From Nocardia sp. NBC_00565 (GTDB lineage Bacteria > Actinomycetota > Actinomycetes > Mycobacteriales > Mycobacteriaceae): 64,000 bases of DNA. The stretch spans positions 3,038,001-3,102,000 of the forward strand of contig NZ_CP107785.1 in the NCBI RefSeq assembly GCF_036345915.1, in the 5' to 3' direction. This document shows positions 4,785 to 55,811 of the stretch, piece by piece. The stretch's first letter is position 1. Each line of letters starts with the position of its first letter. The translations under genes were made by a program, and so were the position numbers. The notes beneath the pieces are model-generated. The model did not search any database. It had not been told where the DNA came from and was given only the letters and a program-made list of their open reading frames with translations.

Positions 4785-4801
4785 GGAGAATAGTATTCTC
4801 C
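4785..4801. promoter_or_regulatory. Palindromic operator GGAGAATAGTATTCTCC
   Basis: A perfect 17-bp inverted repeat centred on one G, between the divergent ligase (4697) and reductase (4838) genes and 36 bp before the reductase start. It is the best copy of a 15-bp motif, GAGAATnnnATTCTC, that recurs in intergenic regions across the window. The bound protein is not shown here; the TetR at 41300-41914 is the candidate. Confidence 0.65.
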
Positions 4802-4837
4802 GTACATCAGAATCTTCATACCAGAAGGAGGCGGTCC

Positions 4838-5878
4838 ATGGCGAGACCTCCCTTGTTCCAGCGCGCGACGGTGACTCGGATCGTCAAGGAAACCGCTGAC
4901 GCCCGTACCTTCGTGCTCGCTCCGCACGAGGGACCGCTCGCCTACCGGGCCGGGCAGTTCTGCACGTTCCGGGTGCGAGTGGACGGCGCGGAGCTGTTCC
5001 GCTCCTACTCGATGTCGAGTGCGCCCGAGACCGACGGCGAACTCATGACCACCGTCAAGCGGGTGCCCGGCGGCAAGGTATCGAACTGGATGAACGACAA
5101 CCTCGTCGAAGGCGACGAGATCGAGATGACCCGCCCGGCGGGCCGATTCTGCCTGCGCGACACTGATGTTCCGCTGCTGGCCTTCAGCGGCGGCAGCGGC
5201 ATCACGCCGATCCTGTCCCTGGCCAAGAGCGCCCTCGCGAGCACCGAGCGCCGAGTGCGGCTGCTGTGCGCGGACCGGGACCAGGCGTCGGTGATCTTCG
5301 AGGCGGTGCTGTCCGACCTGGTCGAGCGGTTCCCGACCCGGCTCGAGGTGGTGCGCCACCTCGACGCCGAGCGCGGGTTGCTCGATCCCGCCACGGTGCG
5401 GGCGTTCGCGGGCGGCGACGGTCATGCGGACGCCTACATCTGCGGCCCCGAGGCCTTCATGGCAATGGTGGAAACCGCGCTACCCGGCCCCGGCCTGATC
5501 TACAGCGAACGATTCGGCGCACCGGCGCCGGTCACCGATGAGACCACCGCGGCCACCGAAACGCCCGCCGCCGCGCCACCCGCGGCCGGCACACCCGCCC
5601 AGGCCAAGGCAACGGTGACGATCATCCTCGGCCGGAAGAAAGTGTCGGTACCCCGCACCGACGGCGAGACATTGCTGGAGAGCGCGCGCCGCGGCGGTCT
5701 CACCCCACCGTTCTCCTGCGAATCCGGCAACTGTGCGACCTGCATGGCCAAACTCACCGCGGGTTCGGCGACCATGCGGGTCAACGACGCCCTGACCGAC
5801 GACGAGGTCGCCGACGGCTACGTGCTCACCTGCCAGGCGGTTCCCGATACCGACTCGATCACCGTCCAATACGAATGA
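4838..5878 (+). CDS. FAD/NAD(P)H ferredoxin reductase with C-terminal 2Fe-2S domain
   Basis: Single-chain electron-transfer reductase, 346 aa. Order: FAD-binding barrel with the RSYSMSSAPE flavin motif, NAD-binding domain with FSGGSGITPILSL and the C-terminal-side CGPEAFM, an Ala/Pro/Thr-rich linker at about residues 228-256, then a plant-type 2Fe-2S domain with CESGNCATCM and a fourth Cys in LTCQAV. This is the KshB / phenylacetate-oxygenase-reductase architecture, which passes electrons from NAD(P)H to a Rieske oxygenase or another acceptor. The Rieske ferredoxin at 17342 or an oxygenase elsewhere could be a partner. The start ATG has AGGAGG upstream. The alpha/beta hydrolase follows after 22 nt. 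Confidence 0.93.
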   Translation: MARPPLFQRATVTRIVKETADARTFVLAPHEGPLAYRAGQFCTFRVRVDGAELFRSYSMSSAPETDGELMTTVKRVPGGKVSNWMNDNLVEGDEIEMTRPAGRFCLRDTDVPLLAFSGGSGITPILSLAKSALASTERRVRLLCADRDQASVIFEAVLSDLVERFPTRLEVVRHLDAERGLLDPATVRAFAGGDGHADAYICGPEAFMAMVETALPGPGLIYSERFGAPAPVTDETTAATETPAAAPPAAGTPAQAKATVTIILGRKKVSVPRTDGETLLESARRGGLTPPFSCESGNCATCMAKLTAGSATMRVNDALTDDEVADGYVLTCQAVPDTDSITVQYE

Positions 5879-5900
5879 CAATGCAGAATCGAGGATCTGA

Positions 5901-6767
5901 ATGACCACAGCGACAGTGCACGGCCGCACGGTCGGCTATGAAGTAATCGGCGCGGGACGTCCCTGGGTGATCACACCGGGCGGCCGGTTCGACCGGCACT
6001 CGCCCGGCGTCCGCGAACTCGCCACCGCACTCGCCGAACGCGGCAACCAGGTGCTCATCTGGGACCGCCCGAATACCGGCGAGTCGGATGTGTGCTTCAC
6101 CGGACCATCCGAATCGGCGATGCAGGCCGACATCCTGGCGGGCCTGCTGAAACAGCTCGATATGTCGCCCGCGGTCATCGTCGGCGGTTCCGGCGGGGCC
6201 CGCGTGTCCTTGCTCGCGGCCGAACGACATCCGGACGTCTGCGCCGCACTCGCGGTGCTGTGGATCTCCGGCGGGGTCTACGGCTTGATCTCCATCGGCA
6301 ACTTCTACTACTCCGGATCGATCGAGGCGGCATGGACCGGCGGAATGGAGGCGGTGGCGGCACTACCGGAGTGGTCCGAGATCATCGCACGCAATCCGGC
6401 CAACCGACAGCGCTTCCTCGACCAGGACCCGAAGCAGTTCATCGCCACGATGGAGCAGTGGCTGGCGGCATTCTGTCTGGGCCCGGGCGAGGTCGTGCCC
6501 GGGCTGTCGACCGTGGACGCCGGCGCCATCGGACTCCCCACCCTGGTTTTCCGCAGCGGTGCCAGCGATATCCACCACCGCCGTGAGACATCGGAAGAAG
6601 TGGCCCGGCTACTGCCGAAGGCGCAACTGGTCGAGCCGCCGTGGGGTGACCGCGAATGGCAAGAACGGCAGGCGGCACGGAACAACGGCACGGCGGCCGG
6701 CCTGTTCGTCCGCTGGCCGCTACTGGCCCCGATCCTGCACGAATGGGCAAACGACGTCCTGCCCTGA
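5901..6767 (+). CDS. Alpha/beta hydrolase fold protein
   Basis: 288-aa alpha/beta hydrolase of the meta-cleavage-product hydrolase / MhpC-like type. The nucleophile elbow reads VGGSGGAR (Ser in G-x-S-x-G context). An acid candidate lies in RSGASDIHH. The late catalytic His normally found before the C-terminal helix is not evident: that region reads PPWGDREWQ. It may use the HH pair in DIHHRRE or be atypical. It is cotranscribed with the reductase. The start at 5901 has GAGG 6 nt upstream. Likely roles are ester or C-C bond hydrolysis in the pathway; the substrate is unknown. Confidence 0.85.
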   Translation: MTTATVHGRTVGYEVIGAGRPWVITPGGRFDRHSPGVRELATALAERGNQVLIWDRPNTGESDVCFTGPSESAMQADILAGLLKQLDMSPAVIVGGSGGARVSLLAAERHPDVCAALAVLWISGGVYGLISIGNFYYSGSIEAAWTGGMEAVAALPEWSEIIARNPANRQRFLDQDPKQFIATMEQWLAAFCLGPGEVVPGLSTVDAGAIGLPTLVFRSGASDIHHRRETSEEVARLLPKAQLVEPPWGDREWQERQAARNNGTAAGLFVRWPLLAPILHEWANDVLP

Positions 6768-6779
6768 ACACGCAGCCGA

Positions 6780-6807
6780 CGTGCGGGCCGCACTAGTGGC
6801 CCGCACG
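6780..6807. terminator. Hairpin terminator between convergent genes
   Basis: A perfect 10-bp stem, CGTGCGGGCC / GGCCCGCACG, with an 8-nt loop lies between the hydrolase stop (6767) and the stop of the CoA transferase on the other strand (6824). A distant TGAACA/TGTTCA pair flanks it. It probably serves both operons. Confidence 0.65.
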
Positions 6808-6823
6808 CTCCGGCGGTCGCTGT

Positions 6824-7939
6824 TCAGTGGCCGTGCTCGCCCAAATGTGGCGGCGGTCGGTAATCGGGCTCGAATCCAGCGATCCGGATCGGGCTGCCGA
6901 CCAGCCGATAGTCGCCCGCGGTCACCACGGCGTGCGGGGTGTCGTCGAGAGCCTCGGGCAGGGTGCGGACGGCGGCCGCCGGGATGCCGAGCGGCCGCAG
7001 GCGCGCTTCCCAGCCGGCCGCGGTGTCGGCGGCCAGGGCCGCGGTGACCGCGGCGAGCACTTCGTCGCGGTGCGCCGACCGCTCGGCCATCGTCGCGAAC
7101 CCGGCCACCCCCGCTTCCCCGGCGAAGGTCTTCCAGAACCCGTCGTGCGTGATGAACAGCGCCAGATGGCCGTCGGCGGTCGGAAAGATCTGCGCCGGAA
7201 CGTAATACGCGTGCGCGCCGAACGGGCGCCGGTGCGGCCGCTTGCCCTCGTTGAGGTAGGCCGAGGCATGATAGTTCAGCTGCGAGAACATGACATCGCG
7301 TAACGACACCTCCACCTGCCCACCGCGCCCGGACACGATCTGGGCGAGCAGGCCGAGCGCGGCGGTCAGTCCGGTGGAGTTGTCGGCCGAGGAGTAGCCG
7401 GGCAGCGTCGGCGGGCCGGCCGGATCGCCGGTCAACGCCGCGACTCCGGTGGCCGCCTGGATGACGTAGTCGAACGCCGGATCGTCACCGCCGTCCAGGC
7501 CGAAACCCGTGATCGCCACACAGACGATCCGTTCGTTCCACTGCCGCAGCGCCGGGTAGGTGAGGCCGAGCCTGCGGATCGCCGAGGGCTTCAGATTCAC
7601 CAGCAGCGCATGGGATTTCGCGACCAGCGCACCGAGCTGGGCCTGCCCCTCGGCGGAGGTCAGATCGAGACGGATGCTGCGCTTGCCGCGATTGAGACTG
7701 GCGAAGTAGCTGTCGCCGACCTGCCGCGAGATCTCACCGTCCGGTGGTTCCAGCTTGGTGACCTCGGCGCCCAGATCGGCGAGCATCATGGTGGCGTACG
7801 GACCGGCCAGCATGGTGCCGACCTCGAGGATGCGGATGCCGGCCAACGGCGCGGGGTCAGCGTCGGACTCCGCTGGGTCGGCGTGCTCGCCCGAGCGTCC
7901 GCGGCGAGCCTTGGCGCTTTCGCCGCGAGCGCCGATCAC
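6824..7939 (-). CDS. CaiB/BaiF family (type III) CoA transferase
   Basis: 371-aa formyl-CoA-transferase-like enzyme. Family signatures: LEVGTMLAGPYATMMLADLGAEVTKLE at the start of the core, NRGKRSIRLDL, and the putative catalytic Asp in AFDYVIQAATG. It would move CoA from a donor such as succinyl-CoA to an acid, or act as a racemase-like relative. The start is a GTG at 7939 that overlaps the stop of the luciferase-like gene (GTGA); the first about 30 residues are a polar Ala/Arg/Ser-rich extension, so a later start is possible. It is the last gene of the mutase operon. Confidence 0.9.
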   Translation of the reverse strand: MIGARGESAKARRGRSGEHADPAESDADPAPLAGIRILEVGTMLAGPYATMMLADLGAEVTKLEPPDGEISRQVGDSYFASLNRGKRSIRLDLTSAEGQAQLGALVAKSHALLVNLKPSAIRRLGLTYPALRQWNERIVCVAITGFGLDGGDDPAFDYVIQAATGVAALTGDPAGPPTLPGYSSADNSTGLTAALGLLAQIVSGRGGQVEVSLRDVMFSQLNYHASAYLNEGKRPHRRPFGAHAYYVPAQIFPTADGHLALFITHDGFWKTFAGEAGVAGFATMAERSAHRDEVLAAVTAALAADTAAGWEARLRPLGIPAAAVRTLPEALDDTPHAVVTAGDYRLVGSPIRIAGFEPDYRPPPHLGEHGH

Positions 7940-8892
7940 CGCAGATCCTTGGCGAGTTCGGCGATCATGTCCCGGGTCCGGCGCTTGGAGGCGACCAGTT
8001 CGTCGCGGTTGTCGCCGATCGGCAGCAACCGCACCGATAGATCGGTGGCCCCGGCGTCGCCGAATCGGCGCAACCCGGCGGCGATGGTCTGTTCGTCACC
8101 GGCGATGCAGATATCACCGATGTCCTTGGCATCGCCGGTTTCCAGCAGCCGCTGATAGTTGGGCGAGACCTCGGCCTCCCCCAGAATGCGATTCGCCCGC
8201 GCCTTCGCCTCGTCGACCTCGGACGGCCGGCACAGGCATACCGGCAGACCCGCCACCACCCGCGGCGCCGGACGTCCGGCATCCGAGGCGGCCTTCGTGA
8301 TACGCGGGACGATATGCTCACCGACCGCGCGCTCATCGGCCATCCAGAGAATGGTGCCGTCGGTATGTTCACCCGCGATGCGCAGCATGACCGGGCCGAG
8401 CGCGGCGATCAGCACCGGCACCGGTGCGACCGGTCCGAGGTCGAGCGGATTGTGCACGGTGAAGGTCGCATTCTCGACATCGACCTGGCCGGGCCCGCCC
8501 AGCGCTACGTTGAGCACGTCCAGATAGTCCCGGGTATATCCGGCGGGCTTGTCATACGGCAGCCCGAGCATATCCCGCACGATCCAGTGATGCGACGGAC
8601 CGACGCCGAGCGCCAACCGCCCGCCCGCCGCGGCCTGCGCCGAAAGCGCCTGCCGCGCAAGGGCGATCGGATGCTGCGCCTGCAGCGGCACCACCGCGGT
8701 CCCGAGCTCGATCCGCGATGTGCGCATACCCATCAGCGCGATGGTGATCAGCGCGTCGAAATCGGTGGGAATCTGCGGAATCCACGCGGTGTCCAAACCC
8801 GCTGACTCGGCCCACTCGATATCGGCCAACATCCGGGTCAGCTTGCGTGCCGCGTCCCCCTTCTCCGGCCCGATCATCACTCCGATACGCAC
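7936..8892 (-). CDS. LLM class (F420-type) oxidoreductase
   Basis: Luciferase-like TIM-barrel protein, 318 aa. The N-terminus VRIGVMIGPE, LGTAVVPLQAQHPIALARQALS and GRLALGVGPSHHWIV are typical of actinobacterial F420-dependent members. I place the start at the GTG at 8892 because a full GGAGG lies 5 nt upstream; an ATG 33 bases further upstream has no such site. Members use F420 or FMN for hydride transfer on ketones, enones or similar compounds. It lies between the mutase subunits and the CoA transferase, so it likely processes the same acid or its precursor. F420 use is family-level inference. Confidence 0.88.
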   Translation of the reverse strand: MRIGVMIGPEKGDAARKLTRMLADIEWAESAGLDTAWIPQIPTDFDALITIALMGMRTSRIELGTAVVPLQAQHPIALARQALSAQAAAGGRLALGVGPSHHWIVRDMLGLPYDKPAGYTRDYLDVLNVALGGPGQVDVENATFTVHNPLDLGPVAPVPVLIAALGPVMLRIAGEHTDGTILWMADERAVGEHIVPRITKAASDAGRPAPRVVAGLPVCLCRPSEVDEAKARANRILGEAEVSPNYQRLLETGDAKDIGDICIAGDEQTIAAGLRRFGDAGATDLSVRLLPIGDNRDELVASKRRTRDMIAELAKDLR

Positions 8893-8958
8893 GAATTCCT
8901 CCATTTTCCAATGCTTTTCGCGCATCCACCGCGGCGCTTCACCGCAGTCGAGACACGC

Positions 8959-9357
8959 TCAGGTCGGCGACGTTCCGGTGAGCGCCCTGATCTGGGTGAC
9001 CAATACCTCCAGCGATGTGCCGGTCGGAAATACCGCGGCCGCACCGACTTCCAACAGCCGCGCCACATCCGCCTGCGGAATGGTGCCGCCCACGATCACG
9101 GCGATATCGCCCGCGTCCGCGGCCCGCAGCGCCTCGACGGTGCGCATGGTCAGGGCGATATGCGCACCGGAGAGGATGCTCAAACCGACGACGGCGACGT
9201 CTTCCTGTAGCGCGATCGTCACGATGTCCTCGATGCGCTGGCGTATGCCGGTGTAGACGACCTCGAAACCGGCGTCACGCAGGGCGCGCGCGACGATCTT
9301 CGCACCGCGATCGTGGCCGTCCAAGCCGGGCTTGGCGACCAGCACTCGTGCCGTCAT
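8959..9357 (-). CDS. Acyl-CoA mutase small subunit, cobalamin-binding
   Basis: 132-aa stand-alone B12-binding domain. The base-off/His-on motif is intact: KPGLDGHDRGAK (D-x-H-x-x-G), with the supporting segments SGAHIALT and GGTIPQ and the lower-axial-pocket GTSLE. The gene starts at ATG 9357, whose T is the first base of the TGA of the large-subunit gene (TGATG), so the subunits are translationally coupled. A separate small subunit is the architecture of isobutyryl-CoA and 2-hydroxyisobutyryl-CoA mutases, not of the usual actinobacterial MutAB. Confidence 0.93.
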   Translation of the reverse strand: MTARVLVAKPGLDGHDRGAKIVARALRDAGFEVVYTGIRQRIEDIVTIALQEDVAVVGLSILSGAHIALTMRTVEALRAADAGDIAVIVGGTIPQADVARLLEVGAAAVFPTGTSLEVLVTQIRALTGTSPT

Positions 9358-10934
9358 CAGAACACCACCGGCTGCTGGAACTCGCCCCAGACCTGCTTCA
9401 GCGCGGTGGTCATCTCGCCCACCGTGCAGTAGGCATTGGCGCAATCGATCAGATAGTGCATCAGGTTCTCATCTCCTTCCGCGGCGCGGGTCAGGGCGGC
9501 GAGCCCGTCCCGAACCGCCGCGGGATCGCGTTCGGCCTTGACTCTGGCGAGGCGCTTCAGCTGTAGATCGCGACCCTCGGCATCCAATTCGTAGGTCGCG
9601 ATTTCCGGGGCGGGCTCATCGGAGACGAACCGATTCACACCGACGACCGGGCGCGTACCCGCCTCGACATCCTGATGCAGCTGATATGCCTCATCGGCGA
9701 TGAGACCCTGCAGATAGCCGTCCTCGATCGCGCGGACCATGCCGCCGTGACGCTCGAGATCGTCCATGATCTCGATGATGCGGGCCTCGGTGGCATCGGT
9801 CAGCGCCTCGACGAAGTAGGAGCCGCCCAGCGGATCCGCGACCCGGGTGACACCGGTCTCGTAGGCGAGGATCTGCTGGGTTCGCAGCGCCAGTGTCGCC
9901 GACTCCTCGCTGGGCAGGGCGAAGGGCTCGTCCCACGCCGCGGTGAACATCGACTGCACCCCGCCGAGCACCGAGGCCAGCGCCTCGTAGGCGACGCGAA
10001 CCAGATTGTTCTGTGCCTGCGGTGCATAGAGGGAAGCGCCACCGGCCACGCACCCGAAACGGAACATCGATGCCTTATCGGTGGTCGCACCGTAGCGCTC
10101 GCGCACGATCGTCGCCCAGCGCCTGCGCCCGGCCCGGTATTTCGCGATCTCCTCGAAGAAATCGCCGTGGGTGTAGAAGAAGAACGAGATCTGCGGCGCG
10201 AACTGGTCGATCGTCATCCGGCCCCGCGCCACCACGGTGTCGCAATAGGTGACCCCGTCGGCGAGGGTGAACGACATCTCCTGTACCGCATTGGCCCCGG
10301 CATCCCGGAAATGCGCACCGGCGACGGAGATCGCGTTGAATCGCGGCACCTCGGCCGCGCAGAACTCGATGGTATCGGCGATCAGCCGCAGCGAAGGCTC
10401 CGGCGGCCAGATCCAGGTGCCCCGGGAGGCGTACTCCTTGAGGATGTCGTTCTGGATTGTGCCCGTGAGCTGTTCGCGCGGCACACCCTTCTTCTCGGCG
10501 GCCGCCACATAGAACGCCAACAGGATCGCGGCCGTGCCGTTGATCGTGAAGCTGGTGCTGATCTTGTCCAGCGGTATGGCATCGAAGAGGATCTCCGCGT
10601 CAGCCAGCGTGTCCACCGCTACGCCGACCCGGCCGACCTCCTCGGTCACCTCCGGATCATCGGAGTCGTAACCGCACTGCGTGGGCAGATCGAGCGCGAC
10701 CGACAGCCCCGTACCGCCCTGCTCCAGCAGATAGCGGTACCGGCGATTGGACTCCTCCGCCGTGCCGAATCCGGAGTACTGCCGAAACGTCCACAGCCGC
10801 CCGCGGTAACCGGTCGCGAAGTTGCCGCGTGTGAAGGGAAAGCCGCCCGGCGCGGGCGGCTCGACATCGCGGTCCGCCGGTCCGTAGACCGGCTCGAGCG
10901 GGATGCCGGACGAGGTCTGAGCTTGGTCGTTCAT
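9357..10934 (-). CDS. Acyl-CoA mutase large subunit (methylmalonyl-CoA mutase family)
   Basis: 525-aa catalytic TIM-barrel subunit without its own B12 domain. By alignment to P. shermanii methylmalonyl-CoA mutase from memory, Tyr53 (in WTFRQYSGF) matches Tyr89, Arg171 (in KEYASRGTW) matches the carboxylate-binding Arg207, and His208 (in AGAHFRDAG) matches His244. Isobutyryl- and hydroxyisobutyryl-CoA mutases have Phe/Ile and Gln at the first two sites, so a malonyl-type dicarboxylyl-CoA substrate is predicted despite the split architecture. The start at ATG 10934 is chosen over a TTG at 10955; neither has a clear ribosome site. A GAGAAT half-site lies about 27 bp upstream. Confidence 0.92.
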   Translation of the reverse strand: MNDQAQTSSGIPLEPVYGPADRDVEPPAPGGFPFTRGNFATGYRGRLWTFRQYSGFGTAEESNRRYRYLLEQGGTGLSVALDLPTQCGYDSDDPEVTEEVGRVGVAVDTLADAEILFDAIPLDKISTSFTINGTAAILLAFYVAAAEKKGVPREQLTGTIQNDILKEYASRGTWIWPPEPSLRLIADTIEFCAAEVPRFNAISVAGAHFRDAGANAVQEMSFTLADGVTYCDTVVARGRMTIDQFAPQISFFFYTHGDFFEEIAKYRAGRRRWATIVRERYGATTDKASMFRFGCVAGGASLYAPQAQNNLVRVAYEALASVLGGVQSMFTAAWDEPFALPSEESATLALRTQQILAYETGVTRVADPLGGSYFVEALTDATEARIIEIMDDLERHGGMVRAIEDGYLQGLIADEAYQLHQDVEAGTRPVVGVNRFVSDEPAPEIATYELDAEGRDLQLKRLARVKAERDPAAVRDGLAALTRAAEGDENLMHYLIDCANAYCTVGEMTTALKQVWGEFQQPVVF

Positions 10935-11897: not shown

Positions 11898-11921
11898 TCC
11901 GATACCCGAGGGATGCCGCCC

Positions 11922-13600: not shown

Positions 13601-14911
13601 GTGACGGCGGGATCCGGGCAAACCGAACGGGTGCGACGACCGCGGGCCGCCGCCGATGGCCGTGCCGACAGCCGGCGTCGCACCCAGATCCTGCACGCCG
13701 CGGCCGAATTGTTCGCCTCGTCGGGCTATGCCAGGGCGCTGCTCAAGGATGTCGCCGACGCGTGCGGAATCCTGCCGGGCAGCCTGTACCACCACTTCGA
13801 TTCCAAGGAATCGATCGCGGTCGAACTGCTCGAACGCTATCGTGACGCGCTCGACGCGGTGGCCGCAGCGGCGCCGCGCGGCGCCGATATCACCGCCGCC
13901 GACACCGCGTTCGAACCGATTTCGCGGTTCGCCACCGCGATTGCCGGCTGCGCGCTCGATCATCGTGCCGCACTGCAACTTTCGATCTACGAACCACATG
14001 CCGGCGCGGGCGCGGAACTCGTGCGGCTGGCCCGGCAGCGCCCGGTCGCGATCGAGAACGCGCTGCGCGAACTCTTGGACGCGGTACGGTCGGTCGGCTA
14101 CCTCGGGGCCGAGATCGATCGGTCGATCCTGACCGAGCAGATGTGCGAGACAATGCTGCACACCGGATTGTCGGTCCTGCATCGCGAGTCCGCGGCCGAT
14201 CAGGTCGCCACGGTGCTGTGCCGCTTGCTGTTCGAAGGTATCGCGGCGAAGCCGCCCACCGACCGCGACCTCGACCGCTCCCCCGCCATGCGGACCGCGC
14301 GGCGGATCGTGGACACCTGGGCCGAGCCCGCGGCGTATGCCGAGGACGACAGGTTGACGATGATCCGATCGGTGGCCAGGGCCGAATTCGCCCGACGCGG
14401 CTACGAGGCGACGACCATGCGCGATATCGCCGCGGCCGCCGAACTGGGTGCGGGCAGCGTGTATCGCACCGTCGAATCGAAAAAGGCGCTACTCGACTCG
14501 ATCATGGGTTCATTTCACGCCGAGCTCTCCGGCGCGTATCAGGCGGTGGTCGGCACCGATTCGACATCGGTCGCCAAGCTGGATGCGCTCACCTGGATCA
14601 ATCTGAGCGCGATCGAGCGGTTCGACGAGGAGTTCGCCATCCAGCGGGCCTGGTTCCGTTCGTCACCGCCCGATACGAGGGGTCTATTGTACGCGTTGCG
14701 GCAGCGGGCGCGCCAGATCCGCACGGTGATCGAGATCGGACAGCGGGCCGGGGAGATACGCCTCGATGGTGTGGCGATCAGCCGGTTGTCGGCCTGCGTC
14801 CGTGACCTGATCTGGATGCCGCCTGGGCTGGTGGCAAAGGTCGGCACGCATACGGCCCTTGCGCATTCGCGCGCCACACTGCTGCGCGGCGCCGCTCGCG
14901 CGCACCACTGA
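13601..14911 (+). CDS. Tandem double-TetR transcriptional regulator
   Basis: 436-aa protein made of two complete TetR units in one chain; normal TetR proteins are about 200 aa. The first DNA-binding domain (residues about 24-75) reads RRTQILHAAAELFASSGYARALLKDVADACGI with the HTH-closing GSLYHHFDSKE. The second (about 250-300) has the helix SVARAEFARRGYEATTMRDIA and GSVYRTVESKKALLD. Each is followed by a helical ligand domain. I start at GTG 13601, preceded by a GAGG about 10 nt upstream; the frame is open to 13547, inside the operator. It probably represses itself and the amidohydrolase operon through the three 17-mers. Confidence 0.88.
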   Translation: MTAGSGQTERVRRPRAAADGRADSRRRTQILHAAAELFASSGYARALLKDVADACGILPGSLYHHFDSKESIAVELLERYRDALDAVAAAAPRGADITAADTAFEPISRFATAIAGCALDHRAALQLSIYEPHAGAGAELVRLARQRPVAIENALRELLDAVRSVGYLGAEIDRSILTEQMCETMLHTGLSVLHRESAADQVATVLCRLLFEGIAAKPPTDRDLDRSPAMRTARRIVDTWAEPAAYAEDDRLTMIRSVARAEFARRGYEATTMRDIAAAAELGAGSVYRTVESKKALLDSIMGSFHAELSGAYQAVVGTDSTSVAKLDALTWINLSAIERFDEEFAIQRAWFRSSPPDTRGLLYALRQRARQIRTVIEIGQRAGEIRLDGVAISRLSACVRDLIWMPPGLVAKVGTHTALAHSRATLLRGAARAHH

Positions 14912-22834: not shown

Positions 22835-22850
22835 GGAGATGATATTCTCC
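22835..22850. promoter_or_regulatory. Imperfect copy of the GAGAAT/ATTCTC palindrome
   Basis: GGAGATGATATTCTCC keeps both GGAGA and TCTCC arms but has six instead of seven central bases. It lies between the divergent ligase (22745) and hydratase (22889) genes, the same location type as the other copies. Confidence 0.5.
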
Positions 22851-22888
22851 GCAACCAAGAATATAAATATCATGTTTGGAGAATGTGG

Positions 22889-23656: not shown

Positions 23657-23671
23657 GAGAATATGATTCTC
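23657..23671. promoter_or_regulatory. Perfect GAGAATATGATTCTC operator
   Basis: Exact match to GAGAATnnnATTCTC, 22 bp before the amidohydrolase start, inside the 88-bp gap after the hydratase gene. It probably overlaps the promoter. Confidence 0.65.
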
Positions 23672-26650: not shown

Positions 26651-26665
26651 GAGAGTAACATTCTC
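26651..26665. promoter_or_regulatory. Operator GAGAGTAACATTCTC
   Basis: One mismatch to GAGAATnnnATTCTC. It lies 77 bp before the amidohydrolase start at 26743. Confidence 0.6.
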
Positions 26666-33644: not shown

Positions 33645-33659
33645 GGAAATTTGATTCTC
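33645..33659. promoter_or_regulatory. Operator GGAAATTTGATTCTC
   Basis: Right half perfect, left half with two changes from GAGAATnnnATTCTC. It lies 21 bp upstream of the aldehyde dehydrogenase start. A further GAGAAT half-site is at 33667-33672. Confidence 0.5.
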
Positions 33660-33792: not shown

Positions 33793-33807
33793 GAGAGTAC
33801 GGTTCTC
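33793..33807. promoter_or_regulatory. Operator GAGAGTACGGTTCTC
   Basis: One change in each arm from GAGAATnnnATTCTC. It lies 50 bp before the SDR start at 33858. Confidence 0.55.
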
Positions 33808-41299: not shown

Positions 41300-41914
41300 T
41301 CAGGCGGGCGCGGCGGTACGCAGACAGAACAGCGTCATGCGCTGCACGTCGGCAGGGGCCGGTTGCACCCGACGCTGCAGATAGTCCCCGAGTTTGCCCA
41401 CGATGGCGTGTGCGACGAGCGCGGCATCGAATTCCGGGTCGGCACTGCCGAGTTCGGTGAACGGCTGATACAGCAGCGAGGCCAGCAGGACATCGGCCGA
41501 CCGGAAACCGGTGGCGCAATCCTCGGCCAGGGTGCCCGCGTTCCACAGCACCGCGCGGGTGGTCGCCGCGGTGTCATCGGCGCCCTGGGCCAGAATGCCC
41601 TCGACCCAACGGCGAATCTTGCCCTGCGCGGTGACTTCCTTGTCCATCTGATGGGCCAGATAACTCAGCAGCCGCTCGGCGCCGTCCTCGATGAGGGCGG
41701 CCACCAGCGCGTCCTTGGACGGAAAATGCCGGTAGAACGCGTCGTTCGACAGTCCGGCGGCGGCCACGATATCCGCGACCCGCGGCCGTGACCCGGTACC
41801 GCGCTCGCGCATCACCGCCAGCGCGGCATCGAGCAACCGACGCACCTCATCGGCATAGTTGGCGCCCCGCCGGGCCAGTGCCCGTTGGGCGATGCGGGTC
41901 ACGATATCCGTCAC
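41300..41914 (-). CDS. TetR family regulator, candidate master regulator of the palindrome regulon
   Basis: 204-aa TetR protein when started at GTG 41914. The HTH domain (about residues 20-75) reads RRLLDAALAVMRERGTGSRPRVADIVAAAGL and NDAFYRHFPSKDALV; a helical effector domain follows (MDKEVTAQGKIRRWVEGILA, ADVLLASLLYQPF). The reading frame stays open upstream to 42058, across the operator, so the start is uncertain and no good ribosome site is seen. The AAGAATAGTATTCTT palindrome lies 28 bp upstream, implying autoregulation. Such a regulator would be released by an acyl-CoA intermediate (family-level inference). Confidence 0.88.
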   Translation of the reverse strand: MTDIVTRIAQRALARRGANYADEVRRLLDAALAVMRERGTGSRPRVADIVAAAGLSNDAFYRHFPSKDALVAALIEDGAERLLSYLAHQMDKEVTAQGKIRRWVEGILAQGADDTAATTRAVLWNAGTLAEDCATGFRSADVLLASLLYQPFTELGSADPEFDAALVAHAIVGKLGDYLQRRVQPAPADVQRMTLFCLRTAAPA

Positions 41915-41941
41915 CGGAAGCGAAACATCATTCTCACCTAT

Positions 41942-41956
41942 AAGAATAGTATTCTT
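41942..41956. promoter_or_regulatory. Operator AAGAATAGTATTCTT in the TetR promoter
   Basis: A perfect 15-bp palindrome of the GAGAATnnnATTCTC family with A/T instead of G/C at the ends. It lies between the divergent TetR (41914) and phosphatase (42052) genes. A second ATTCTC half-site is at 41930-41935. Confidence 0.65.
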
Positions 41957-44436: not shown

Positions 44437-44453
44437 TAAGAATGATATTCTTA
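44437..44453. promoter_or_regulatory. Operator TAAGAATGATATTCTTA
   Basis: A perfect 17-bp palindrome of the AAGAATnnnATTCTT subtype between the VOC gene (44402) and the acyl-CoA dehydrogenase gene (44494); it probably controls both directions. Confidence 0.65.
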
Positions 44454-44493
44454 ACCATGAGAAGCATGTTTCCATCATCTGAGAGGAGGCGCA

Positions 44494-45795
44494 ATGGCGT
44501 GGGATTTCACGACCGAGCCCGAGTTCCAGGCGAAACTGGACTGGGCCGATGCGTTCGTCCGCGACGAGGTCGAACCGCTCGACCTGATCTGGCCACATCA
44601 GCAGTTCGTGCCACCGGACGAAACCCGGCGCAAGGTGATCGATCCGCTCAAGGAGCAGGTCAGGCAGCAGGGGCTGTGGGCAACCCATCTCGGGCCCGAC
44701 TTGGGCGGACAGGGATACGGCCAGCTGAAACTGGCGCTGCTCAACGAGATCCTCGGCCGCTCGTCGTGGGCGCCGGTCATCTTCGGCTGCCAAGCGCCCG
44801 ACACCGGCAACGCCGAGATCATCGCGCATTTCGGCACCGAGGAGCAGAAGCAGCGCTACCTGCGTCCGCTGCTGGAGGGCGAGCTGTTCTCCAGCTATTC
44901 GATGACCGAACCGCACGCCGGCGCCGATCCGACCCAGTTCACCACCCGCGCGGTCCGCGACGGTGCCGACTGGATCATCAACGGCTGGAAGTACTTCTCC
45001 TCCAACGCCAGAACCGCGTCGTTCCTGATCGTGATGGTGGTGACGAACCCGGATATCAGCGCCTACCAGGGCATGTCGATGTTCCTGGTGCCGACCGATA
45101 CGCCGGGGGTCGAGATCGAGCGCAATGTCGGCTTGTACGGGGAACCGTTGAACGACGGCTCGCACGCCCTCATCCACTACAACAACGTGCGGGTACCCCA
45201 CACCGCCCTGCTCGGCGGCGAAGGTCAGGCCTTCGCCGCGGCCCAGGTCCGGCTCGGCGGCGGCCGGATCCACCATGCCATGCGCACCATCGGCCTGGCG
45301 CAGAAGGCGCTGGACATGACGTGCGAGCGCGCCCTCAGCCGGCGGACCGCGGGCAGCCTGCTGTCGGAAAAGCAATTCGTGCAGGGCTATATCGCCGACT
45401 CCTACGCCCAGCTGCTCCAGTTCCGCCTGATGGTGCTGTACACCGCGTGGGAGATCGATAAATACAACGACTACAGGAAGGTCCGCAAGGACATCGCCGC
45501 GGTGAAGGTCGTCATGCCCACCGTGCTGCACGACATCGCCTGGCGCGCAATGCAAGTGCACGGCGCGCTCGGTACGACCAACGAGATGCCGTTCTTCATG
45601 ATGATCCATGGCGCCGGCGTGATGGGCCTGGCCGACGGGCCGACCGAGGTGCACAAGATGACCGTGGCCAAACAGGTGCTGCGCGACTACAGCGCCAGCG
45701 GCGATCAGTGGCCCACCGAATGGGTCCCGCGCAAGCTCGCGGCCGCGCAGGCCAAATACGCCGAATATCTCGAACACGAAGTAGGTAACCAGTGA
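44494..45795 (+). CDS. Acyl-CoA dehydrogenase, ACAD10/11-like
   Basis: 433-aa acyl-CoA dehydrogenase. SMTEPHAGADPTQFTTRAV (FAD/substrate loop), IINGWKYFSSNA, GLYGEPLNDGSHALIHYNNV and AMQVHGALGTTNEMPFFMM are seen. The pairing with a following aminoglycoside-phosphotransferase-like kinase matches the domain pair of human ACAD10/11 and the LvaA/LvaC pair of Pseudomonas levulinate catabolism, where a 4-hydroxyacyl-CoA is phosphorylated and then turned into an enoyl-CoA. By analogy this gene would carry out the phosphate-eliminating step. ATG with GAGGAGG upstream. Confidence 0.92.
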   Translation: MAWDFTTEPEFQAKLDWADAFVRDEVEPLDLIWPHQQFVPPDETRRKVIDPLKEQVRQQGLWATHLGPDLGGQGYGQLKLALLNEILGRSSWAPVIFGCQAPDTGNAEIIAHFGTEEQKQRYLRPLLEGELFSSYSMTEPHAGADPTQFTTRAVRDGADWIINGWKYFSSNARTASFLIVMVVTNPDISAYQGMSMFLVPTDTPGVEIERNVGLYGEPLNDGSHALIHYNNVRVPHTALLGGEGQAFAAAQVRLGGGRIHHAMRTIGLAQKALDMTCERALSRRTAGSLLSEKQFVQGYIADSYAQLLQFRLMVLYTAWEIDKYNDYRKVRKDIAAVKVVMPTVLHDIAWRAMQVHGALGTTNEMPFFMMIHGAGVMGLADGPTEVHKMTVAKQVLRDYSASGDQWPTEWVPRKLAAAQAKYAEYLEHEVGNQ

Positions 45796-46814
45796 TAGAC
45801 ACCGCCCGCCTGGCCGATTGGATGGACGCGGCCGGGCTCCCCGGTAAGGGCGAGCCGCTCGAGGCGCGATTTCTGTCCGGCGGCACCCAGAACGAGATCT
45901 ACCTGCTCACCCGCGGCGAGGAGCAGAGCGTCATCCGGCTGCCACCGGAGAACGCGCCCGCCGACCGCGATAAGGGCATTCTGCGCGAGTGGCGCATCAC
46001 CGCGGCGCTCGACGGCACCGATGTGCCGCATACGCCGGCGATCGCGGTGTGCACCGACCATTCGGTGATCGGTCGCACCTTCTATCTCATGGGATATGTC
46101 GACGGCTGGTCGCCGATGGGGGCACGCAATGGCTGGCCGGCGCCCTTCGATACCGACGCCGAGGCTCGCAACGGCCTGGCCTACCAGCTGGCCGAGGGCA
46201 TCGCCCTGCTGTCGAAGGTGGACTGGCGGGCGAAGGGGCTGCACGATCTGGGCCGGCCCGACGGTTTCCACGACCGCCAGGTCGCCCGCTGGACCAGCTT
46301 CTTCGAGCACAACAAGGGCCGCGAGCTGGACGGTATGGACGTGGCGACGAACTGGCTGCGCGAGAACAAGCCGCTCGACTTCATCCCCGGCCTGATGCAC
46401 GGCGACTACCAGTTCGCCAATGTGATGTTCAAGCACGGCAAACCGGCACAGCTGGCCGCGCTCATCGACTGGGAGATGGGCACCGTCGGCGATCCGAAGC
46501 TCGACCTCGCCTGGATGGTGCAGGGCTGGCCCGAAGATATGCACTCCCCCGCAGCCGCCAACACCAGCTATGTGAACCTGACCGGCATGCCGACGCGCGA
46601 GCAGTTGGTAGCCCACTACGCCGAGGTCTCCGGCCGGCAGGTGGACGACCTGGACTACTACCTGGTCCTGGCCAAATGGAAGCTGGCGATCGTGTTGGAG
46701 CGTGGCTTCCAGCGGGCCGGCGACGACATCAAGCTGCAGTCGTTCGGTCCGATCGTGCCCAAGCTCATGCGCGAGGCCGCCGAACTCGCCGAGAGTACGG
46801 AGTACAAGTCGTGA
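45792..46814 (+). CDS. APH-like phosphotransferase, predicted 4-hydroxyacyl-CoA kinase
   Basis: 340-aa choline/aminoglycoside-kinase-fold protein. The nucleotide loop is LSGGTQNEIYLLTRG, the Lys/Arg region SVIRLPP, the catalytic loop MHGDYQFANVMF (HGDxxxxN) and the metal Asp in ALIDWEMGTVGDPKLDLAW. It matches the kinase half of ACAD10/11 and LvaA. With the dehydrogenase before it and the hydratase after it, it would phosphorylate a 4-hydroxyacyl-CoA. The GTG start at 45792 overlaps the dehydrogenase stop (GTGA). Confidence 0.92.
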   Translation: MIDTARLADWMDAAGLPGKGEPLEARFLSGGTQNEIYLLTRGEEQSVIRLPPENAPADRDKGILREWRITAALDGTDVPHTPAIAVCTDHSVIGRTFYLMGYVDGWSPMGARNGWPAPFDTDAEARNGLAYQLAEGIALLSKVDWRAKGLHDLGRPDGFHDRQVARWTSFFEHNKGRELDGMDVATNWLRENKPLDFIPGLMHGDYQFANVMFKHGKPAQLAALIDWEMGTVGDPKLDLAWMVQGWPEDMHSPAAANTSYVNLTGMPTREQLVAHYAEVSGRQVDDLDYYLVLAKWKLAIVLERGFQRAGDDIKLQSFGPIVPKLMREAAELAESTEYKS

Positions 46815-47590
46815 CCGATATCGAGAACGCCGAATTCCTCCTCGACCGGCACGGCCCGGTCATGATCATCCGACTGAACCGGCCGCAGGCGCGAAATGCG
46901 CTGACCCGCACCATGATGCAGGGGATCGGCGCGGCCGTCATCGCGGCCGAGACCGATCCCTCGGTCCGGGCGGTACTGCTCACCGGCACCGGCGACCGGG
47001 CCTTCGGCTCCGGTATGGACCTGCGCGCCTTCGCCGGTGGCACCGATTTCGGCGGTGGCCAGGAGACCGACGCCTATGGCCGACTTGCCAAGGGGCAGAC
47101 CAGCATTCCGGTGATCGGCGCTGCCAATGGTACGGCCATCGGCGGCGGCCTCGAACTGCTACTCGGCAGCGATGTCATCGTCGCCTCCGCCGCGGCAAAG
47201 TTCGGCTTCCCCGAGGCCAAGCGCGGACTGTTCGCCGCGGGCGGCGGCACCTCGATCGGCACCAGGATTCCGTTGGGCATCGCCTTGGAATTGCTGCTCA
47301 CCGGCGAGTTCATCGACGCCGATCGGGCGTACCAGATCGGGTTGGTCAATGCCGTCGCGGCGCCGGATCAAGTGTTCGACACCGCGCTGGCCCTGGCCGA
47401 GAAGATCGCCGCCAACGCACCGCTGGGTCTGGCGGCCACCAAGGAATTGACCCGCCTCGCGGTCACCGATAGCGACCTGGCCGAACAACGCCTCAGCAAA
47501 TGGCAATCCATCGTGTTCTCCAGCGCGGACGCCAAAGAAGGCGCGATGGCGTTCGTGGAGAAGCGGTCGCCGAACTGGCAGGGCCGGTGA
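46811..47590 (+). CDS. Enoyl-CoA hydratase/isomerase family protein
   Basis: 259-aa crotonase-fold enzyme. NRPQARNAL, the oxyanion-hole FGSGMDLRAF and NGTAIGGGLELLLGSDVIVAS, and FPEAKRGLFAAGGGTSIGTRIP with an ordered Glu are visible. It would hydrate the enoyl-CoA released by the dehydrogenase. The GTG start at 46811 overlaps the kinase stop (GTGA). Three successive 4-base overlaps mark this as one tightly coupled unit. Confidence 0.92.
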   Translation: MTDIENAEFLLDRHGPVMIIRLNRPQARNALTRTMMQGIGAAVIAAETDPSVRAVLLTGTGDRAFGSGMDLRAFAGGTDFGGGQETDAYGRLAKGQTSIPVIGAANGTAIGGGLELLLGSDVIVASAAAKFGFPEAKRGLFAAGGGTSIGTRIPLGIALELLLTGEFIDADRAYQIGLVNAVAAPDQVFDTALALAEKIAANAPLGLAATKELTRLAVTDSDLAEQRLSKWQSIVFSSADAKEGAMAFVEKRSPNWQGR

Positions 47591-47596
47591 TCGCGG

Positions 47597-48571
47597 ATGC
47601 GTGCTGCGGTCTGCCCGGCGTACGGGCCGCCCGAGGTCGTCCGGATCGAGGAGCGCCCGTCGCCGGAGCCGGCGGCGGGCCAGGTGCGGATCCGGGTCGG
47701 CGCTGCGGCCGTCAACTTTCCGGATGTGCTGCTGCTGGCGAACAAGTACCAGATCAGCGTGCCGCCGCCGTTCGTACCCGGCAGCGAATTCGCCGGTGAG
47801 ATCGTCGAATCCGGCGCTGGCAGTGCGGATTTCGCCGTCGGCGACCGGGTCACCGGCACCGGGCTCTACGGCGCCTTCGCCGAAGAGGTGGTGGTGTCCG
47901 CGGCCGGGCTCACCCGGATCCCGGACGGTGTCGACGATCGCACCGCCGCCGCGTTCGGGGTCGCGTATCGCACCGCGTACCACGCACTTCGATCCGTCGC
48001 GCGGGTACATGCGGGCGCCGAGTTGATCGTGCTCGGCGCCGGCGGCGGTGTCGGGTTGGCCGCGGTCCAGCTGGGCGTTGCGCTCGGTTTGTCGGTGACC
48101 GCGGTCGCCTCCAGCACCGACAAGCTGGATATCTCGGCGTCCTACGGTGCCCGACATCTCATCAACCATCGATCCGATGACCTGCGAAAGGCACTGCGTG
48201 CGGCGATTCCGGATGGCGCCGACGCCGTCCTCGACCCGGTCGGGGGCGAGCTCGCCGAACCGGCACTGCGCGCCCTCGGTCGGGGTGGACGATTCGTCAC
48301 CATCGGCTACGCCTCGGGTGTCGTCCCGCGCATTCCGCTCAATCTGGTGCTGGTCAAAGGTCTGCATGTGCTCGGGTTCCAGTTCCAGGACCTGGTACCG
48401 GAAGAATTCCGCCGCAATGAGGACGAGTTGCGGGAGCTGCTCGTCACGAAGCAGGTGCTCCCCCATATCGGTGCCAGCTTCACCCTCGCCGAAACCGCGG
48501 CCGCGCTGCGCGTCGTCGCCGAGGGCCGAGCGATCGGGAAGGTTCTCATCGAGCCGGCCGGTACCAACTAG
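47597..48571 (+). CDS. NADPH:quinone oxidoreductase-like MDR protein
   Basis: 324-aa medium-chain reductase without the zinc ligands, so a quinone- or enoyl-reductase type. N-terminal MRAAVCPAYGPPEVVRIEERPSPEP, the NADPH motif LGAGGGVGLAAVQLGVALG, and the C-terminal VPHIG-like VLPHIGASFTLAETAAALRVVAEGRAIGKVLIEP are normal. It may reduce an enoyl or enone intermediate. It lies six bases after the hydratase gene and is the last member of the operon, followed by a perfect terminator hairpin. Confidence 0.92.
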   Translation: MRAAVCPAYGPPEVVRIEERPSPEPAAGQVRIRVGAAAVNFPDVLLLANKYQISVPPPFVPGSEFAGEIVESGAGSADFAVGDRVTGTGLYGAFAEEVVVSAAGLTRIPDGVDDRTAAAFGVAYRTAYHALRSVARVHAGAELIVLGAGGGVGLAAVQLGVALGLSVTAVASSTDKLDISASYGARHLINHRSDDLRKALRAAIPDGADAVLDPVGGELAEPALRALGRGGRFVTIGYASGVVPRIPLNLVLVKGLHVLGFQFQDLVPEEFRRNEDELRELLVTKQVLPHIGASFTLAETAAALRVVAEGRAIGKVLIEPAGTN

Positions 48572-48614: not shown

Positions 48615-48624
48615 CACCGTTCGC

Positions 48625-49134
48625 TCAGACAGGTATGAGGTCGACGGCCGCCGAAAGACGAGTCGAGGGCAGACCGCTGCGGAAGGTCTCGACGGTGTCG
48701 ATCGAATCGACCGGGACCGCGGCCGCGGCGAGAGCCTGCGCCTTGAACGCCCGCGCGGCCACGCTCAGCGGATGCTGTACCGAACCGACGCGGCGGTGCA
48801 ACTCGCTCGGACAGGATTCACCGAGCACTGTGACCTCGATGATTCCGCGCTCCAGCGACTCCAATACACCGCACCGAACACGGTGATCGGATTCGAACAG
48901 TTCACCGGCCACTGCGACCGCGTGCGGCTGCGTGGGGTGCGTCGGCGACGACAGGGAAACCTCCAGATCGAGCACCGTCGCGCCCAGGATCCGCAAGGGC
49001 AGCGCATTCGCCGGATCCGCGACGATCACGGTCACTTCCCAGCCGGCGAGGACCCGGTCGAATAGCCAGCCGCCGGCGCACCGCACCACCTCGGCCACGC
49101 TCGGCGACACGACGCCGAGCCGGTACCTCAGCAC
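48625..49134 (-). CDS. Conserved hypothetical protein downstream of TetR
   Basis: 169 aa from GTG 49134, which overlaps the TetR stop codon (GTGCTGA). It begins LRYRLGVVSPSVAEVVRCAGGWLFDRVLAGWEVTVIVAD, has a central beta-like half (LPLRILGATVLDLEVSL) and ends with a helical part (AARAFKAQALAAAAVPVDSIDTVETF). No transmembrane segment, no known catalytic motif. I do not recognise the family. The coupled start suggests it works with the TetR, perhaps as an effector or partner. Confidence 0.65.
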   Translation of the reverse strand: MLRYRLGVVSPSVAEVVRCAGGWLFDRVLAGWEVTVIVADPANALPLRILGATVLDLEVSLSSPTHPTQPHAVAVAGELFESDHRVRCGVLESLERGIIEVTVLGESCPSELHRRVGSVQHPLSVAARAFKAQALAAAAVPVDSIDTVETFRSGLPSTRLSAAVDLIPV

Positions 49135-49748
49135 GTGTCGGGGCGCGTCAGATCGCGTGCGAGTGATAGAGCGTACTGCTGGAACACTCGGGTCAGTGGA
49201 ATCGAAGGGTCGAGCAGCCATGAAGTTTCCATTCCATTGAGAAAAGCGACTATCTCCACTGCCTTGACGGCAGGGTCCAGATCCGTGCGGTACCGTCCGG
49301 CCCGCTGACCGCTGCTGATCCGCTCGGCGAGCGTGTCGACAGCGGCGCGGTAACGGCCAAGCAGGCGATCGTGCAAGGGGGCGTCGGGATCGAGATTCTC
49401 GATCAACAGCACGACGAACATGCCGATCAGATCGGGTGAACGCCGGAATCTATCGGCGACATGCTCGACCGACTCGACCAGGTCGCCGGTGAAATCCGCA
49501 TGCTGTTCGTCGTCGGAGTCCCTGGCCTCCAGCACGGCGTGCAGCAGTTGCTCCTTGGACGCGAAATGGTGCAGCAGTCCGGCCGGACTCACCCCGGCCT
49601 CCCGTGCGATCTGCGCCAGGGTGATCGACCGCCACCCGTTGCGGGCCAGCAGCCGCTTGGCGACCGCGAGAATTCGCTGCTTGCGCTCCTCGCCCTTGAC
49701 GAGCAACGCATCGTAGGGACGCGCGGCATTCGACCGTGGTTCGGACAC
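49128..49748 (-). CDS. TetR family transcriptional regulator
   Basis: 206-aa TetR protein. HTH region ILAVAKRLLARNGWRSITLAQIAREAGVSPAGLLHHFASKEQLL (about residues 26-75) is textbook; the effector domain follows with AEQHADFTGDLVES-like helices and IVAFLNGMETSWLLDPSIPL near the end. A perfect 14-bp inverted repeat lies 52 bp upstream, probably its own operator, and it faces away from the ABC transporter operon, whose last gene ends at 49856. It may be the transporter's local regulator. Confidence 0.92.
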   Translation of the reverse strand: MSEPRSNAARPYDALLVKGEERKQRILAVAKRLLARNGWRSITLAQIAREAGVSPAGLLHHFASKEQLLHAVLEARDSDDEQHADFTGDLVESVEHVADRFRRSPDLIGMFVVLLIENLDPDAPLHDRLLGRYRAAVDTLAERISSGQRAGRYRTDLDPAVKAVEIVAFLNGMETSWLLDPSIPLTRVFQQYALSLARDLTRPDTC

Positions 49749-49779
49749 CGAACTCCTTTGCTGCGGCTGTAGCGATTGC

Positions 49780-49795: not shown

Positions 49796-49799
49796 AGGA

Positions 49800-49833: not shown

Positions 49834-49855
49834 GCGTAGTGTGACAAGCACCACT

Positions 49856-53742: not shown

Positions 53743-53743
53743 A

Positions 53744-55123: not shown

Positions 55124-55140
55124 TGAATCCTCCTAACAAA

Positions 55141-55183
55141 GGTCCGCCCGCCACCGGATATGCGTGGTGTCGGCGGCCGGACC
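55141..55183. other. Imperfect hairpin in the leader of the ABC binding-protein gene
   Basis: GGTCCGCCCGCC and GGCGGCCGGACC pair with one mismatch across a 19-nt gap, 18 bp upstream of the 55123 start. It could be an operator or a 5' leader structure; function unknown. Confidence 0.35.
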
Positions 55184-55287
55184 CCGGCTCATCGTTGAGC
55201 GGAACGCCATTCTAATGACGCTCTCCGTCTCGGAAAACTATCCTCTCATCTGAGGAGAACTAAACCCATCGTTTTTGAGGAAGTTCA

Positions 55288-55752
55288 GTGGAGAATCAAC
55301 GAAACAAGAGATCCATCACCATGTCGGAGACCGCACAGGACGAGTTCCTGCGCAGCCAGCCGCTGTGCCGAATGGCCACCGTCGGCCCGGGCGGGCATCC
55401 GCACACCAGCGCCCTGTGGTTCGTCTGGCACAAACAGTCGCTGTGGCTCAACTCCCTGGTGCGCAGCAAACGCTGGGCCGATGCCGGCCGAGATCCACGC
55501 GTCAGCGTGATCGTCGACGATGGCGGCGCCGATTTCTTCCGTCTGCGTGGCGTCGAACTGCGCGGCAGCGTGGCGGCCGTCGGCGAGGTCCCACGCAAAG
55601 GCGAAGCGCACGAGGCCCTCGCCACCGTCGAGCAACTCTTCGCGGACAAGTACATGGGCGGCGGACAGTTCCGCTACGACGACCGACACGCCTGGCTGCG
55701 GCTGACCGCGGACCGCATCGTGAGTTGGGACTTCGCCAAGCTGCGCAGCTGA
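55288..55752 (+). CDS. Pyridoxamine 5'-phosphate oxidase-fold (FMN/F420-binding) protein
   Basis: 154-aa split-barrel protein. It has FLRSQPLCRMATVGPGGHPHTSALWFVWHKQSLWLNSLVRSKRW followed by VSVIVDDGG, the pattern of mycobacterial F420/FMN-binding PPOX-like proteins. It could be a flavin- or F420-dependent reductase. The GTG at 55288 has GAGG 8 nt upstream; an ATG at 55321 is the alternative. It stands alone, divergent from the ABC operon. Confidence 0.88.
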   Translation: MENQRNKRSITMSETAQDEFLRSQPLCRMATVGPGGHPHTSALWFVWHKQSLWLNSLVRSKRWADAGRDPRVSVIVDDGGADFFRLRGVELRGSVAAVGEVPRKGEAHEALATVEQLFADKYMGGGQFRYDDRHAWLRLTADRIVSWDFAKLRS

Positions 55753-55796
55753 TACCGACGCGGCCTTCCCTGATGAAAATTTGGTAGTTACAATGT

Positions 55797-55811
55797 GAGA
55801 ATACAATTCTC
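55797..55811. promoter_or_regulatory. Perfect GAGAATACAATTCTC operator
   Basis: Exact match to GAGAATnnnATTCTC, 45 bp after the PPOX-like gene. A GGGAGAGG ribosome-like site and ATG 55832 follow (53-codon frame to 55993), so a small gene may be controlled here. Confidence 0.55.

Follow-up and report, generated by a model that had tools for sequence, protein, structure and literature searches.

A conserved palindrome in a Nocardia catabolic island and its probable reader, a TetR-family protein encoded beside the window

The window analyzed here is a stretch of 64,000 nucleotides (G000:C1:3038001-3102000, on contig NZ_CP107785.1) from Nocardia sp. NBC_00565, whose genome is a single contig of 9,711,624 bases. 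We read its gene content from 50 scanned proteins (one of them an extra open reading frame, ORF) out of the 64 genes called in the window. This content is catabolic and includes acyl-CoA dehydrogenases, CoA ligases, enoyl-CoA hydratases (ECH), CoA transferases, several amidohydrolases, a B12-dependent mutase, a P450, an aldehyde dehydrogenase (ALDH), and short-chain dehydrogenases (SDR). A 15-bp palindrome recurs among them, and we examine here whether it serves as an operator and which TetR-family protein reads it, the main candidates being two proteins that we call TetR D and TetR A. The consensus used for exact counts is the G..C-ended form GAGAATNNNATTCTC; the broader form RAGAATNNNATTCTY is one that AAGAAT..ATTCTT copies also fit. 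The copies in the window, labeled D-type or A-type where they could be classed, and their partner boxes are the following.

4786..4800, exact GAGAATAGTATTCTC, D-type, between a leftward AMP-ligase/acyl-CoA dehydrogenase/ECH operon and a rightward ferredoxin-reductase-like gene
22835..22849, degenerate box GGAGATGATATTCTC, a base shorter and with three mismatches, 47 bp ahead of the ECH gene 22889-23605
22857..22871, another degenerate box, at 22 bp from the one at 22835
23657..23671, exact GAGAATATGATTCTC, D-type, 30 bp before the amidohydrolase gene 23694-24887
26651..26665, GAGAGTAACATTCTC, one mismatch, 85 bp before the amidohydrolase gene 26743-27999
33645..33659, GGAAATTTGATTCTC, two mismatches, 28 bp before the ALDH gene 32134-33624 (minus strand)
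33793..33807, GAGAGTACGGTTCTC, two mismatches, 58 bp before the SDR gene 33858-34562
41921..41935, partner box of 41942 at 21 bp, 4/12 mismatches
41942..41956, AAGAATAGTATTCTT, A-type, between the TetR A gene and a tyrosine-phosphatase-like gene 42052-43089
44438..44452, AAGAATGATATTCTT, A-type, between a VOC gene 43941-44402 (minus strand) and an acyl-CoA dehydrogenase operon 44494-48571 (plus strand)
44459..44473, partner box of 44438 at 21 bp, 4/12 mismatches
55797..55811, exact GAGAATACAATTCTC, D-type, with no convincing intact gene downstream

An earlier note, made from the letters of this stretch, had listed nine copies in at least nine intergenic regions. All nine places hold one, but the regions number eight, since 33645 and 33793 share one, and two of the mostly accurate coordinates (4785 and 44437) are off by one. 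The copy at 22835 is indeed one base shorter, but it is also degenerate. The copies do in general precede operons, with the exception of the exact one at 55797. The AAGAAT subtype lies where it had been placed, at the promoter of TetR A (41942) and at the VOC/dehydrogenase promoter (44438); both copies have two mismatches to the G..C form and none to RAGAATNNNATTCTY. As a separate observation, all that follows the exact palindrome in the interval 55797-56328 is an ORF that has no Pfam match and is perhaps a decayed gene.

The palindrome is far more frequent than chance would allow, as estimated with a first-order Markov model, 100 shuffles, and a reversed pattern (a palindrome of the same letters) used as control. 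Exact copies of GAGAATNNNATTCTC number three in the window (starting at 4786, 23657, and 55797) against 0.0015 expected under the Markov model, and nine in the 9.7-Mb chromosome against 0.23. Allowing up to three mismatches, the window has 24 matches, whereas the shuffles average 11.75, reach 22 at most, and never attain 24 (0/100). The broader form has 13 exact copies in this genome against none for the reversed control, and 38 with one mismatch against two; the same control gave no exact match across all 151 genomes of the family sample described below. All exact sites of this genome that fall in the stretches read are intergenic, and within the island they lie mostly 20-140 bp ahead of a start codon. 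Outside the island several one-mismatch matches fall within genes, as expected by chance, and the two-mismatch matches at 8182 and 11169, both inside genes, are probably chance as well. The distribution of the sites does not fit the 51-kb unit first proposed: those with at most one mismatch to RAGAATNNNATTCTY start 33 kb left of the window, at G000:C1:3004813, and extend to 3093811, and more intergenic sites are found near 2.13, 2.20, 2.41, 2.50, 2.56, 7.06, and 9.41 Mb.

We searched the orthologous promoters of other Nocardia for eight of the nine named sites (all but 55797), and each recurs in some of them, often at an equal distance from the gene while the spacer bases change. Exact copies of the 4786 site are present in four genomes (G003, G004, G007, and G021). 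The 23657 site keeps its 30-bp distance with a different spacer in three (G007, G009, and G021), and none is found at a 52%-identical paralogue. The 26651 site has orthologous GAGAGT..CATTCTC boxes in G009 (91 bp) and G021 (60 bp). The 33645 site is matched by two-mismatch boxes at 25-26 bp in G002, G010, and G021, and by a box with three mismatches in G009, while the 33793 site recurs before the SDR gene in two genomes (G009 and G021) and, in G002 and G010, lies 172-174 bp ahead of the ALDH gene. The box at 22835 is insufficient by itself; its partner at 22857 and the orthologous promoters, which have a box 25 bp from the start codon in both G003 and G007 and another at 47 bp in G003, add some support to it as a putative site. 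The subtype at 44438 is retained in G002 and G004 and also in G010, where one outer base differs; G003 has no site listed ahead of the called start, and three paralogues have none either. The idea of a conserved operator common to much of the island is supported.

The regulators considered as readers of this putative operator are listed below.

G000:C1:3027263-3027946, TetR D, 10 kb left of the window and in the same island
41300..41902 (minus strand), TetR A, PF00440 with an E-value of 2.2e-11, local regulator
49128..49748 (minus strand), TetR B, tested as reader and disfavored
13601..14911 (plus strand), TetR C, two TetR_N domains, tested and disfavored

TetR D was spotted when listing the TetR genes of the fetched stretches, where it was repeatedly bracketed by the palindrome. 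It was located by a TetR helix-turn-helix profile built for this work, and PF00440 is recorded on a 98%-identical protein (P0001). The predicted fold of D is that of an all-helical TetR, nearest to Rv0078/EthR2, with acyl-CoA-binding FadR proteins among the matches. We examined 80 D loci, from Mycobacterium and Mycolicibacterium, Nocardia, Rhodococcus, and Williamsia. In 79 of them the 250 bp upstream contain a palindrome with no more than one mismatch (an exact one in 77), and in 64 a copy lies downstream at up to about 300 bp; of 1,340 random 250-bp windows taken from 67 of these loci, 3 contain it. These loci are mutually related, so the count overstates their independence. In the genome under study the operon starts after a site at 3021614 and reads CMD, Rieske oxygenase, a 108-aa protein, amidohydrolase, SnoaL, two acyl-CoA dehydrogenases, and D, where the family names are carried over from a Rhodococcus locus (L189); a site at 3027947 follows, and then TesB-like and DapB-like genes. 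A second copy of D lies at 2200337-2200990. In the seven of the 80 loci that were drawn, the block recurs, whole or in part, in Mycobacterium, Rhodococcus, Williamsia, and other Nocardia. Williamsia also keeps the ligase/dehydrogenase/ECH block with its site and the reductase gene, which corresponds to the left end of the window, and the core target operons recur together in several genera.

The presence of D follows the presence of the sites. The genus sample comprised 24 genomes (this one included) and the family sample 151 genomes from 30 genera. In the latter, D was called at E <= 1e-70, and the 35th match (G080, 29% identity) was counted as negative. Within the genus, D is found in exactly the 10 of 24 genomes that have six or more RAGAATNNNATTCTY sites, and the sole other genome with a match (G020) has it at 28% identity and 8e-12. 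Across the family, D is present in 34 of the 151 genomes. At least one exact GAGAATNNNATTCTC site occurs in 33 of these 34 and in 8 of the 117 others, which have one site each, in line with chance according to a rough scaling of the Markov estimate; at least two occur in 30 of 34 versus none of 117, and the totals are 166 sites versus 8. Five genera contain both D-positive and D-negative genomes, and permuting D inside them gives a p-value of about 5e-6. Overall, 4,969 proteins match D at E <= 1e-20.

The weak homologues of D in Mycobacterium were considered as a source of the same motif and rejected, as a different palindrome, GGTAATGTCATTACC, lies beside that TetR. It was found in two of three 18-kb Mycobacterium stretches (L230:8436-8454 and L231:9262-9280) and not in the third, and similar GGTAAY-type repeats occur at L281, L282, and L284, three of another nine short loci. 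This other TetR adjoins amidohydrolase and acyl-CoA dehydrogenase genes, and its system is perhaps a sister regulon.

Many sites come in pairs. The 322 distinct sites having no more than one mismatch were reduced to 89 dissimilar ones, whose surroundings we searched for a second box. With at most 3/12 mismatches, second boxes are found at offsets of -21 (8), -22 (3), +21 (5), and +22 (7), against zero or one at each other offset from 12 to 45 bp. With at most 4/12 mismatches, a partner at 21 or 22 bp on either side accompanies 48 of the 89 sites, compared with 1, 0, 5, 7, and 2 in five control offset sets; a few pairs are counted from both sides and the 89 sites come from related genomes, so the effective numbers are smaller. 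In the window, the sites at 23657, 26651, 41942, and 44438 have a listed partner, and those at 4786 and 55797 do not. The spacing amounts to two helical turns, which would place two dimers on one face of the DNA and thus fit cooperative repression. In our reading of the promoters, six of the seven strong pairs (at most two mismatches) at 21 bp lie at promoters of A or A-like genes, whereas the four strong pairs at 22 bp lie away from A promoters.

The subtype itself tracks TetR A. Called at 57% identity or more, A is found in 11 of the 151 family genomes, all of them D-positive, and 10 more genomes have relatives at 32-45% identity. A copy of MAGAATNNNATTCTK lies at most 1.8 kb from A in 10 of the 11, while the 140 other genomes hold 34 copies in all. 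The promoters of A often have paired boxes, such as GAGAATATCCTTCTT-n6-AAGAATGCAATTCTT, and in other genera they have CAGAAT..ATTCTG. From this association, it is more likely that A reads the AAGAAT/CAGAAT subtype at its own and neighboring operons, including the sites at 41942 and 44438.

These observations lead us to a model to which we give a probability of about two in three: D would be the reader of GAGAATNNNATTCTC and A the reader of the subtype that differs in the outer base. D would bind GAGAATNNNATTCTC as an operator, mostly 20-140 bp upstream of start codons, and repress its own operon as well as the dispersed catabolic operons, often sitting as two side-by-side dimers on boxes 21-22 bp apart; it would probably be released upon binding a pathway intermediate, perhaps an acyl-CoA. 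A would take the subtype with an outermost pair other than G-C (AAGAAT/CAGAAT), usually as 21-bp pairs, at its own and the neighboring operon (41942 and 44438). A narrower proposal, which we hold tentatively and at somewhat less than even odds, is that two TetR proteins with dissimilar helix-turn-helix (HTH) sequences use the same core AGAATNNNATTCT and are distinguished chiefly by the outermost base pair (G-C in the case of D, A-T or C-G in that of A) and by how the two boxes of the double operator are spaced (22 versus 21 bp). This would produce nested regulons over a pathway conserved from Mycobacterium to Nocardia and Rhodococcus.

Several observations weigh against this model, beside the relatedness of the D loci and of the paired sites mentioned above. 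Sites are absent upstream of some orthologues and paralogues. One D-positive genome (G132) lacks any exact site. In the genus sample, the D match of G002 is a stretch of 64 residues only, and the homologue in G009 (G009:C77:9406-10071) carries one in-frame TGA, yet this genome keeps seven RAGAATNNNATTCTY sites. On the side of A, one genome (G081) has the gene and no M..K site, three of the 18 A loci read (L250, L251, and L252) have no box within 1.5 kb, A promoters also hold mixed boxes such as GAGAATATCCTTCTT, and the boxes of an A-like TetR at 2408275, 21 bp apart, end in G..C, which breaks the outer-base rule. The fold resemblance of D to acyl-CoA-binding regulators tells little about its ligand. 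Lastly, D-negative genomes may just lack the island, and another regulator could therefore be traveling with D.

The alternative that best survives is that D alone reads every palindrome, the AAGAAT subtype included, and that A is merely a target of D that reads something else. The identical core AGAATNNNATTCT, the dissimilarity of the HTH sequences of A and D, the presence of D in all 11 A-positive family genomes, and the exceptions to the outer-base rule would agree with this. We nevertheless consider it unlikely, given the clustering of the non-G..C subtype and of the strong 21-bp pairs at A and A-like promoters, and the retention of the subtype at the 44438 promoter in three other species.

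It is less probable still that the motif is read by another regulator of the island, be it TetR B, the TetR at G021:C11:93675 and its kin, or a protein outside the TetR family. Co-occurrence is unable to separate jointly inherited genes and several TetR genes lie near sites, but among the TetR proteins examined (neither the 93675 type nor regulators outside the family were traced across genomes) D is the one repeatedly bracketed by the motif. TetR B was rejected as the sole reader by G021, a genome with 12 sites and no match to it at 1e-20; the 78%-complete G015 has no such match either. TetR C is present in only 4 of the 24 genus genomes at 1e-30. A, B, and C are each missing from at least one site-rich genome, which disfavors them as the main reader. 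TetR C is of some interest in its own right as a protein of 436 aa with a double TetR_N; a double-HTH TetR is discussed for rubber degradation in PMC7413915.

The earlier note had ascribed most of the island to a single regulator, for which it put forward TetR A. The shared operator stands, but A is probably not the reader of most sites, and very improbable as their sole regulator. The gene does have a copy of the motif in its own promoter, as stated, and at 57% identity or more it is present in nine of the 24 genus genomes (this one included), which are nine of the 10 site-rich ones. These nine have 6-14 RAGAATNNNATTCTY sites, and the other 15 genomes have 0-2, except for G007, which has 11 exact sites and whose best match to A is merely 1.1e-7. 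In addition, A at 57% identity or more is absent from 23 of the 34 D-positive family genomes, 22 of which bear at least one exact GAGAATNNNATTCTC site. These genomes and G007 contradict A as the sole regulator.

That the palindromes are chance matches or a dispersed repeat can be dismissed, as the window has a roughly 2,000-fold excess of exact copies and the sites are conserved while their spacers change, even if the matches at 22835, 8182, and 11169 would each look like chance on their own.

Among known systems, KstR and KstR2 are TetR repressors of actinobacterial cholesterol catabolism that control a dispersed regulon and have an autoregulatory palindrome. D likewise has the TetR fold, and the structure of KstR2 (4w97) is its fold match 42; the family listing used for scoring contained no KstR2 model. 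The letters of the KstR operator differ from the palindrome here, as the earlier note had stated, and neither D (22.6 bits) nor A (20.6 bits) is KstR-like by family score (NF033703, cut-off 280 bits). FadR-type repressors control fatty-acid degradation genes, and the acyl-CoA-binding TetR proteins of this type from Thermus, Bacillus, and Sulfolobus are fold neighbors of D; the scores of D and A against the FadR model NF053878 (26.1 and 22.4 bits) are far below its cut-off of 200. The same holds for the ScbR-type autoregulator receptors (NF041196, cut-off 150), with 45.0 bits for D and 32.1 for A. QacR binds a 28-bp palindrome as a tetramer, according to PMC4482099. Two boxes about two helical turns apart would fit paired dimers in a similar manner, and the fold matches of D include QacR entries, at 12-13% identity in the alignments. 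Unlike in QacR, there are here two separate 15-bp palindromes 21-22 bp apart, one of which is usually degenerate.

The closest precedent is motif X, a palindrome of Mycobacterium sp. VKM Ac-1817D that is assigned in PMC6593523 to the Rv0767c orthologue G155_05115. It is reported next to 14 operons, of which phytosterol induces 12 more than 3-fold. As here, that palindrome precedes dispersed operons (P450s, aldehyde/alcohol and short-chain dehydrogenases, TetR genes), and the assigned TetR has a copy near its own start codon; those operons mostly lack KstR/KstR2 sites. The gene context is also partly alike: at a Mycobacterium interjectum locus (L167) a P450 and an SDR come after D, and Rv0767c adjoins cyp123 and the oxidoreductase Rv0765c in the gene list of PMC10470581. 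In the seven loci drawn, the neighbors of D are Rieske, acyl-CoA dehydrogenase, and ECH genes, whereas Rv0767c is also next to cyp51 and aldA; its sites are described in PMC10312376 as GAC/GTC-enriched, unlike the motif here. Motif X may be the same or a sister system, a likeness drawn from description and gene context. If it is identical, the motif was already known, and what we add are its letters, a wide co-occurrence test, the pairing, and the A subtype. In the open-licence PMC literature we found no paper with the exact operator words and nothing nearer than the motif X paper, which is not proof of novelty.

As for the pathway, no family match among the enzymes of the Rieske operon and of the window names a substrate. 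The oxygenases nearest to the Rieske protein (of L189) are of the carnitine/glycine-betaine and aromatic types, with scores far below the cut-offs, and the reductase of the window reaches about half of the PaaE cut-off. Genes that lie nearby are the B12-dependent mutase of the window and, at the Rhodococcus locus, a MeaB-like GTPase. The interval 6824-10934 holds a split B12-dependent acyl-CoA mutase (large subunit and separate B12 domain), an LLM oxidoreductase, and a CoA transferase. Some 30 kb to the right of the window (L023, G000:C1:3133745-3140317) there are genes whose N-termini resemble those of a meta-cleavage/steroid-type cluster.

The genes under the putative operator (Rieske oxygenase, CoA ligases, and acyl-CoA dehydrogenases) point to a degradation or beta-oxidation pathway, and their regulator at most sites is probably D in place of A. 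The D/A pair could exemplify how related regulons avoid cross-talk. More generally, a widespread and apparently uncharacterized TetR gains a testable operator, a list of targets, and a candidate pathway in Mycobacterium, Nocardia, and Rhodococcus.

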